DNA from: Henriciella sp.
Lineage (GTDB): Bacteria; Pseudomonadota; Alphaproteobacteria; Caulobacterales; Hyphomonadaceae
Length of the DNA: 64,000 nt
Direction of reading: 5' to 3'
Assembly: GCA_017642885.1 (NCBI GenBank)
Contig: JAEPOM010000002.1
Location: 273,735-337,734, forward strand
Shown here: positions 8,490 to 12,701 of the stretch, piece after piece
Numbering within the stretch: the first letter of the stretch is position 1
Layout of the letters: each line of letters opens with the position of its first letter
Made by a program: the position numbers and the translations under genes
The notes under the pieces: model-generated
Seen by the model: only the letters and a program-made list of their open reading frames with translations
Told to the model about the DNA's origin: nothing
Database searches by the model: none

Positions 8490-9260
8490 ATGGATAAACC
8501 AGTTACCCTGATCATCGGGCTTGGGAAAACGGTGGGCGAGTCTGTCGCACGCCGTTTTCTAGATGAAGGCCATGCGGTGCTTGCCGTCGATCCAGACACG
8601 GCGGCGCTTGACGAGCTGCGCAAGACAACCGGCGATAAGATCGCCTATCATCATGGCGCTACGCATACGAAACTTGGCCTGCGCAATGCAATGGCGGCAG
8701 CGTTGGAAACCTACAATTTCGTGGACAACGTGGTCTGCATCCCTCCGCTGCCGGAGCCGGATCGCCTGCTTGAACTGGAAATGGAAGATTTCGAATCGGT
8801 TCTGATGAAAACCGTCCGCGGTGCCGTTCAAACTCTTCGTGTGTTTACGCCGGAAATGATCGCTGAGCGACCCGTGACGGAGAATGCTGCGGACCGATCG
8901 CGCCAGACCGGTACGTTTACTTTCGTGCTCTCTCTTGGCGCGCAAATGTCCCAGCCGGGCTGGTTCAGCGAAAGCGCCTCGCAGCATGCCATTCTCGGCA
9001 TTGTCAGAGCCGCGGCGATTGAGCTCGCTGATGAAGCGGTCCGGGTAAACGCCATCATCGCCTTGCGCCCGCGTGCAGAAGGGCGCGAGCCTTGGTTGAA
9101 AGATCGCACACCGCTCGGCCGCCCGTCCATGGCCGAGGAAATCGCAGAAACAGCGGCCTTCCTGAGCAACCCCAACAGCGCGATCATCACCGGCGAAGCC
9201 ATCACCCTGGATGGCGGTCGCGGGCTGCTCTCAGGATTGATCGTCCGCGACGACGATTAA
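8490..9260 (+). CDS. Short-chain dehydrogenase/reductase family protein
   Basis: LIIGLGKTVGESVARRFLDEGHAVLAVD; C-terminal PLGRPSMAEEIAETAAFLSNPNSAIITGEAITLDGGRGL typical of SDRs. Confidence 0.85.
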   Translation: MDKPVTLIIGLGKTVGESVARRFLDEGHAVLAVDPDTAALDELRKTTGDKIAYHHGATHTKLGLRNAMAAALETYNFVDNVVCIPPLPEPDRLLELEMEDFESVLMKTVRGAVQTLRVFTPEMIAERPVTENAADRSRQTGTFTFVLSLGAQMSQPGWFSESASQHAILGIVRAAAIELADEAVRVNAIIALRPRAEGREPWLKDRTPLGRPSMAEEIAETAAFLSNPNSAIITGEAITLDGGRGLLSGLIVRDDD

Positions 9261-10674: not shown

Positions 10675-12003
10675 TTATTTCGGGTGGCAGATTACCGGCA
10701 TCCAGGTGTAGCCTTTGACGAAGGCCCCTGAGGTCAGGGCTGGCTCGTCCAGGACCTCGATATGGCTGAAGCGCTCGAGGATCTCTTCCCAGAGAATCCG
10801 CAACTGAAGCTCGCCCAGGCGATTACCGACGCAGCGGTGGATACCGAAACCGAAGGACAAGTGGTTACGGGCCTGCTTGCGATCGATGATCAGGCGATTT
10901 GGATCTTCGTCCCAGAATCGCTCATCGCGGTTGCCGGAGACGTACCACATGGCGATCTGGTCGCCTTTCTTGATCGTCTTGCCGTGCATCTCGACATCTT
11001 CCAGCGCGGTGCGGCGCATGAAGGCGAGCGGCGTCTGCCAGCGAATAACCTCTGACACCATGTTCGGGATCAGCGATGGATCAGCTTTCAGCTTGGCATA
11101 CTCTTCCGGGAATTTGTTCAGGCCATAGACCGAGGCAGTCATCGAATTTCGGGTCGTATCATTGCCGCCTACTATCAGAAGGATGACATTACCGAGCAAT
11201 TCCATCGGCGCGAGGTCCTTGGTTTTCTCACCATGCGCCAGAAGGCTAATGAGATCGTTCTTGACCGGAATGCGCTTGCGTTCCTCGTACATGCCCATGA
11301 ATGCGGTCAGGCATTCGAGAAGCTCTTGCTTCCACTGCTCTTCACCGCCTGGGCAGATATCAGGATTTTCGCGGTTGGTCGTGACGTCGGACCATCGGGT
11401 TAGTTTGCGGCGGTCTTCGAATGGGAAATCGAACAAGGTTGCCAACATCATCGTGGTCAACTCGATCGAGACCGTGTCGACCCAATCGAAAGGCTCGCCA
11501 ACCGGCACCTGGTCGAGAATTTGCTGTGTCCGTTCGCGGATCAGCGGCTCGAACTCTTTCAGCATATTAGGCGCAACCGCCGGCTGAACGGTGACACGCT
11601 GCTCAGAGTGGCGCGGTTCATCCATCGCAATGAACATTGGCAGCTCGAAGTCTTCCAGCGGCTCGCCGAGCACGATCCCGCCATGCTCCCAGCTTGATGA
11701 AAAACGCTTATGATCGATATCGATCTTCATCACGTCTTCATAACGCGTGACCGACCAATATGGGCCGACAAAGCTGTCCGGGGTCCAATGCAGCGGATCT
11801 TCATCGCGCATACGTTTGAACCGGTCCCAGATCTTGCCCTGCCGCCAAAGCTCAGGATCGACAATGTCCAAGGTTTCCATATCCACTTCGGACGCGGGCG
11901 GAATGTCTGCATCGAACTCGAAATAGCCTGGGTGAAGCGGGTCGCGCACCGTAATTTTCGGGCGCTCTAAATTGTGCGGAATCTTGGTAAGGGTGTCTGC
12001 CAT
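10675..12003 (-). CDS. Cytochrome P450, CYP153-like (alkane/fatty acid terminal hydroxylase family)
   Basis: LLGNVILLIVGGNDTTRNSMTASVYGLN, PNMVSEVIRWQTPLAFMRRTALEDVEMHGKTIKKGDQIAMWYVSGNRDE, HLSFGFGIHRCVGNRLGELQLRILWEEIL: strongly reminiscent of CYP153A sequences. Confidence 0.92.
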   Translation of the reverse strand: MADTLTKIPHNLERPKITVRDPLHPGYFEFDADIPPASEVDMETLDIVDPELWRQGKIWDRFKRMRDEDPLHWTPDSFVGPYWSVTRYEDVMKIDIDHKRFSSSWEHGGIVLGEPLEDFELPMFIAMDEPRHSEQRVTVQPAVAPNMLKEFEPLIRERTQQILDQVPVGEPFDWVDTVSIELTTMMLATLFDFPFEDRRKLTRWSDVTTNRENPDICPGGEEQWKQELLECLTAFMGMYEERKRIPVKNDLISLLAHGEKTKDLAPMELLGNVILLIVGGNDTTRNSMTASVYGLNKFPEEYAKLKADPSLIPNMVSEVIRWQTPLAFMRRTALEDVEMHGKTIKKGDQIAMWYVSGNRDERFWDEDPNRLIIDRKQARNHLSFGFGIHRCVGNRLGELQLRILWEEILERFSHIEVLDEPALTSGAFVKGYTWMPVICHPK

Positions 12004-12041
12004 GTGTGCCTCCGGATACGCGGTCTGGGTCGCCGCAATTA

Positions 12042-12097
12042 TGACGCTGGCGTCAGCTTAACACAGCTCTTCAGAAAAAACCATGACGCATGCGTCA
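12042..12097. promoter_or_regulatory. Twin palindromic operator candidates upstream of the CYP153-like gene
   Basis: TGACGCTGGCGTCA (12042-12055; 6-bp arms) and TGACGCATGCGTCA (12084-12097; perfect 14-bp palindrome); same arms TGACGC/GCGTCA, centres 42 bp apart. Confidence 0.65.
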
Positions 12098-12111
12098 CTT
12101 TTTTAGAAGAT

Positions 12112-12600
12112 TCAGGTTGAGTATCGCTCATTCTGCGCGTTCCAGATCGCCTGCTCCATCGCCTCTTTGAGGGATTTACGTTCAGCCGGGGTCAAAAATC
12201 GACCGATCACCCAGGCGGTGCCCCCATAAGTCAGCTTCAGAACACTGGGGCGACGTTCGGGATACTCCAGGTGCACCCGCGTGAACGCGGTCGGCAGGCT
12301 GGCCGTGCGCGGCGCCGCGCCAGGTCGCTCATGCGAAAGCTCGATCTGTTCGGCGGTAATCCGGACGCGGGTTTCCTGTTTGAGGCTTCGAAAGCTCCAA
12401 CGAAAAGCAAACCAGATCGCCAGTGCATCAAGACCGAAAAAGCCAATAACCGGAAACGCGCCCATCGACACGAAAGAGAGCCCAGCGATGAAACTCATCG
12501 CAACCACAATGACCATCACCACGGTAAACGCCCGCGGGCTGAGCGAGCGGTTCGGCGTCAGAGTTGCATCGAAATATATGATCTGCTGCGCGGGCGACAT
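12112..12600 (-). CDS. DUF2244-type membrane protein
   Basis: IYFDATLTPNRSLSPRAFTVVM, two TM segments, ELSHERPG; likely start MSPAQQ (12600). Confidence 0.75.
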   Translation of the reverse strand: MSPAQQIIYFDATLTPNRSLSPRAFTVVMVIVVAMSFIAGLSFVSMGAFPVIGFFGLDALAIWFAFRWSFRSLKQETRVRITAEQIELSHERPGAAPRTASLPTAFTRVHLEYPERRPSVLKLTYGGTAWVIGRFLTPAERKSLKEAMEQAIWNAQNERYST

Positions 12601-12701
12601 GCGAAACACTATAGCGCAAATCTGCGCCCCGGCGACAAGCGCGGCCTGGCGTCGCAAGATTCGGATTTTCAGCACCGTTCAACTGCCCTACATAGCGACG
12701 C

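Follow-up and report, generated by a model that had tools for sequence, protein, structure and literature searches.

Conserved palindromes upstream of a Henriciella CYP153 gene are candidate operators of a dispersed alkane and fatty-acid oxidation regulon

Two 14-bp palindromes located upstream of a CYP153-type cytochrome P450 gene are probably (probability roughly 0.6) operators, with the core TGACG-N4-CGTCA, of a dispersed alkane/fatty-acid regulon that would be repressed by a trans-encoded TetR-type dimer, whose gene lies on contig C33 of the host genome, and released by an acyl compound. Judged by comparison across related genomes, the palindromes are real, conserved regulatory sites, and we infer from these comparisons the direct binding, the sign of control, the ligand, and the transcription start.

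RESULTS

Two palindromes in the window

The window, the whole 64-kb stretch of DNA that was analyzed, contained the following features around the palindromes.

12084..12097, no strand assigned: putative distal (ancestral) operator TGACGCATGCGTCA; a site of this type precedes 58 CYP153 genes
12042..12055, no strand assigned: putative proximal operator TGACGCTGGCGTCA, which reads TGACGCCAGCGTCA along the gene strand; 11 of 58 loci have it
12059..12065, minus strand: -10-like element TGTGTTA, starting 18 nt past the distal operator; predicted function
12075..12080, no strand assigned: T-tract (gene strand) bordering the distal operator on its downstream side; GCGTCATGGTTTTTT kept in the ortholog alignment
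12100..12105, no strand assigned: A-tract (gene strand) bordering the distal operator on its upstream side; AAAAAA kept in the ortholog alignment
12009..12013, minus strand: GGAGG, read from the sequence as the CYP153 ribosome-binding site; GGAGG conserved in the alignment
10675..12003, minus strand: CYP153-type cytochrome P450 gene (442 aa; PF00067, PDB CYP153A7), the putatively controlled gene
12112..12675, minus strand: DUF2244 gene (PF10003), co-oriented, upstream, and outside the regulon

Both 14-mers, with the arms TGACGC/GCGTCA, lay within the 108 bp that separate the stop codon of the DUF2244 gene (12112) from the ATG of the P450 gene (12003-12001, minus strand), 38 bp (proximal) and 80 bp (distal) upstream of that start codon. 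The arms and the center-to-center distance of 42 bp given in the original prediction were confirmed on the window sequence, and the pair were the sole matches to the motif in the window, even when two mismatches were allowed. The closest PDB match of the P450 was CYP153A7 (3rwl; E 7.6e-148, residues 37-440), which bears out its earlier description as CYP153-like; by this match the enzyme is a CYP153-type hydroxylase with predicted activity on alkanes or fatty acids. A different, second P450 gene (9276-10484, plus strand), convergent to the CYP153 gene and following an SDR gene (8490-9260), had no motif copy.

Motif frequency and conservation

Motif copies were sought in genomes by pattern searches, with the reversed pattern as the control. 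The whole host genome (3.66 Mb, 71 contigs) contained six exact copies and none of the control pattern, and the 29 genomes of the host's genus contained 198 copies of the looser pattern TGACRCNNGYGTCA and 10 of its control. In favor of functionless products of chance, the motif is short, and shuffled sequences gave 5.4 matches per window at up to two mismatches; the enrichment in the genome and the genus, together with the footprinting at CYP153 genes described below, argues against this reading, which the conservation refutes and to which we give next to no weight.

In a sample of 80 CYP153 loci from named genomes, the distal site preceded the CYP153 gene in 58, beginning 71 to 179 bp ahead of the start codon; its conservation extends over dozens of species of related bacteria. 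Its arms were perfect in 55 of these 58 loci, with 11 different values of the two central bases, and both the A-tract and the T-tract flanking it were conserved in the ortholog alignment. A -10-like element, T[AG][TC]GNTA, was recognized in 46 of the 58 loci and in all 46 began exactly 18 nt past the distal site; its columns were near-invariant in alignment A1, and the leader downstream of it varied in length despite the fixed distance between site and element. This fixed promoter position gives the distal site the signature of a protein-binding site. The original prediction had proposed both a genome-wide motif search and footprinting upstream of CYP153 orthologs, and had held that random occurrence or a lack of conservation would count against it; neither was found. 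CYP153 paralogs of these assemblies (L064 and L067-L071) had no such site.

The proximal site was found in 11 of the 58 loci with a distal site, always exactly 42 bp from it, and its distribution over the CYP153 tree calls for three or more gains or losses. Since so few loci carry it, the two-operator arrangement is lineage specific and the single distal operator is the general part. The two-operator switch originally proposed is thus upheld as regards the palindromes as conserved operators, and not as regards the pair as a general design. Reckoned from the -10-like element, the distal site would be centered at about -38 and the proximal site at about +4, that is, over the start point of transcription, which is predicted near 12053. 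Two contigs (L057 and L058) were labeled Candidatus Sulfopaludibacter (Acidobacteria), and their CYP153 genes were nested within Hyphomonas on the tree; these assemblies are probably mislabeled or contaminated.

The distal palindrome might instead be the intrinsic terminator of the DUF2244 gene and no operator. It lies 15 bp past the DUF2244 stop codon between A6 and T6 flanks and, on both strands, resembles a weak, bidirectional terminator hairpin, with a 5- to 6-bp stem followed by T6 in the manner of a hairpin with a U-tract. However, the arms were invariant, with no compensatory covariation, in 55 of 58 loci; the box and its flanks were kept in Ponticaulis loci, where the upstream gene is divergent; and the motif recurred at promoters of unlinked genes. 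These three observations contradict termination as the cause of the conservation and make the terminator reading highly improbable, although the distal site may possibly have a side role as an insulator.

Genes preceded by the motif

Elsewhere in the host genome, exact or near-exact sites preceded, among others, the genes for a ferredoxin reductase (a P450 redox partner), followed by a 2Fe-2S ferredoxin (C69); a Coq4-like protein (C8); a fatty-acid desaturase (C44); an aldehyde dehydrogenase (C2); a GMC oxidoreductase, divergent from an enoyl-CoA hydratase (C4); and an FMO-like monooxygenase (C11). A further site, on C66, fell close to the point where a coding frame ends and was 35 bp ahead of a DUF1365 gene. 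Among eight genus genomes inspected, one of which (G020) was partly read, sites preceded the CYP153 and ferredoxin-reductase genes in all eight, the Coq4-like gene in six, and the desaturase gene in five. Additional targets in other family members were acyl-CoA ligase and aldehyde dehydrogenase genes, and alcohol/aldehyde dehydrogenase genes were preceded by the motif in some related genomes. Taken as predicted targets, these genes support a dispersed alkane/fatty-acid oxidation regulon that reaches past the P450.

The promoters differed in layout. In 10 of 12 ferredoxin-reductase promoters, the operator was placed within the 17-nt spacer between TTG[AC]AA and CATG[AT]A, a repressor-like placement, and the Coq4-like promoters resembled the CYP153 promoter in having the site, then a T-rich stretch, and then a -10-like element. 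A separate perfect palindrome, TGACACCGGTGTCA, was found in several relatives (L226, L227, and L234; G002, G030, G035, G037, G042, G049, and G053) ahead of a conserved gene for a large secreted/outer-membrane-like protein or a GDSL lipase gene; another regulator may be responsible for it.

A candidate regulator on contig C33

The CYP153 neighbors that were scanned comprised DUF2244, endonuclease III, HisF, P450, SDR, GGDEF, and PurE-like genes, in agreement with the original statement that no regulator gene is adjacent; nor was there among them an AraC-type gene beside CYP153, the arrangement looked for as a mark of CypR-type control. The regulator would therefore be encoded in trans. The survey for it covered the TetR family, with 21 TetR_N matches in the host genome, and singled out the gene at C33:179390-180013, whose product scored 56.7 bits against TetR_N (PF00440; curated cut-off, 24) and which is followed by a hormone-sensitive-lipase-like gene (PF07859).

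Each of three further genus genomes that were checked, among them the small, regulon-keeping genomes G024 and G027, had an ortholog of the C33 TetR gene, and the gene was counted in 29 of 29 genus genomes, in 4 of 4 motif-bearing genomes of the family's other genera, and in none of 4 motif-poor ones. Its co-occurrence with the motif was seen first in 61 genomes and again in a second draw of 200. In these 200 genomes of the order, there were 3.46 motif copies per genome with a C33-type TetR and 0.71 without one, counts that disregard shared ancestry, against 0.20 and 0.12 copies, respectively, of the reversed control. The 154 previously unused genomes gave 3.32 and 0.78 copies, again irrespective of shared ancestry, and the association held within each of three families, kinship inside the families being left out of account. 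Some TetR-bearing genomes (G058, G074, and G094) had few or no motif copies.

The promoter of the C33 TetR gene itself carried a palindrome, TGACRNNNYGTCA (TGACG-N3-CGTCA), with a variable center and mostly of the form AAAGTTGACGNNNCGTCA, in 28 of 30 orthologs. This 13-bp form was also located at the TetR promoter in four genomes of another family and was missing in several more distant orthologs. Across the host genome TTGACGNNNCGTCA was not enriched, so that it marks the TetR promoter and not a second regulon, and the exact 14-bp motif was absent from the promoter of every host-genome TetR gene, where autoregulation would place it. The TetR promoter and the regulon motif had the half-site in common, with a spacer of 3 bp at the regulator's own promoter and 4 bp at the targets.

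By co-occurrence and the shared half-site, the C33 protein is the best candidate for the TetR-type regulator that had been suggested as an example; its binding is presumptive, and both palindromes are probably bound by this unlinked regulator. Another trans-acting protein, such as a MarR, a GntR, or another TetR, might own the operators, with the C33 TetR binding its own N3 site only and co-occurring with the motif through lifestyle. The difference in spacer length and the restriction of the survey to the TetR family leave room for such a protein; we consider it distinctly unlikely, given the same half-site at the C33 TetR promoter and a co-occurrence that was replicated in unseen genomes and inside families.

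Proposed mechanism

Under the preferred reading, a TetR dimer on the general distal site would cover the -35 region of the CYP153 promoter (center at about -38), and in the host lineage a second dimer site on the same face of the helix would cover the start point (about +4). At the ferredoxin-reductase promoter, the dimer would sit between the -35 and -10 elements. The bound dimer would exclude RNA polymerase and thereby repress, until an alkane-derived acyl compound (a fatty acid or acyl-CoA) released it. Release would raise jointly the P450, ferredoxin reductase and ferredoxin, the desaturase, and the Coq4-like protein, as well as alcohol/aldehyde dehydrogenases in some species. The regulator would also act on its own gene by way of the related palindrome TGACG-N3-CGTCA; for this, a single dimer would have to read both the 3-bp and the 4-bp spacer, which is the chief weakness of the model.

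Repression is favored on the ground that, from one promoter to the next, the site falls at a different place within the polymerase footprint. Activation at the -38 promoters is possible, since a clear -35 element is absent there, and the same TetR might be a dual regulator that activates the CYP153 and Coq4-like genes from -38 and represses where the site is within the polymerase footprint, as at the ferredoxin-reductase gene and its own gene. The lack of a recognizable sigma-70-type promoter at CYP153, the strictly fixed distance from site to -10 element, and the similar layout of the Coq4-like promoter are all consistent with this, and TetR-type FasR offers a precedent for an activator (PMC7382501). 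However, where the site stands with respect to the -10 element varies from promoter to promoter, and the second site, at about +4, is in keeping with repression, so that we regard dual control as unlikely. As a tentative extension, held at low confidence, an acyl-responsive TetR-type global regulator may operate in much of the alphaproteobacterial order, with one dimer, two spacer classes (N4 at targets and N3 at its own gene), and repression or activation according to site position, tying membrane desaturation and the Coq4-like protein to alkane hydroxylation by CYP153 and the electron chain that serves it.

Relation to known systems

The characterized CYP153 regulators covered in a review are AraC-type (CypR; Alcanivorax borkumensis and Dietzia), and the TetR-type AlkX of Dietzia represses the AlkB-type gene alkW1 and responds to fatty acids (PMC8784404). 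CypR resembles the regulator proposed here in controlling a CYP153 alkane-hydroxylase promoter in trans; unlike the present TetR-type candidate, with no regulator gene nearby and an inverted-repeat site across the regulon, it is an AraC/XylS-type activator. AlkX is likewise a TetR-family regulator of an alkane hydroxylase, and it is lipid responsive, but it is encoded within an alkB-type operon of an actinobacterium, whereas the present CYP153 system is alphaproteobacterial and its putative regulator is encoded elsewhere; this likeness is one of description. The C33 TetR shares its family with FasR and the Bacillus-type FadR, which are acyl-CoA responsive, and aligned to the FasR model almost from end to end (residues 16-201 of 208 aa; E 5.9e-11). 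The resemblance is weak, with scores far under the family cut-offs, and the protein is a member of neither the FasR equivalog (NF053731; 42.5 bits, cut-off 330) nor the Bacillus FadR equivalog (NF053878; 48.3 bits, cut-off 200) of NCBIfam.

Literature searches, carried out largely outside subscription journals, returned no paper containing the motif strings or describing the present regulon. The regulon is new, and the type of system is already known. CYP153 enzymes are important bacterial alkane oxidizers and biocatalysts; with the conserved operator, the set of genes, and the TetR candidate specified, their regulation can be tested directly in Hyphomonas, Henriciella, and Ponticaulis. The operator/TetR pair could yield a new biosensor part for alkanes or fatty acids, and the Coq4-like and desaturase targets hint that alkane use is linked with quinones and membrane lipids.

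Other regulators and their palindromes

Three other regulators were rejected as owners of the motif. The TetR L180, which shares an operon with the host's second CYP153 gene, was missing from many genomes rich in the motif and has a palindrome of its own, TAGGGTN4ACCCTA; the TetR L181/L099, whose gene is preceded by the motif in one relative, has a different palindrome-like sequence in its promoter; and a MarR gene beside a site in G046 had no ortholog in the genus.

The second CYP153 gene overlapped or abutted the L180-type TetR gene (L193:8252-10269, on contig C33; also in L135, L152, and L170), with a conserved palindrome of its own, TAGGGTNNNNACCCTA, just upstream, forming a separate regulatory module; in some species, this CYP153 gene stood directly before a ferredoxin reductase gene. 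Another TetR gene, represented by L252 (C11:146104) and L099, had a TGAACAATTTGTTGATCATTCA-type palindrome-like promoter sequence in common with a homolog in a distant genome, the protein of which was 49% identical.
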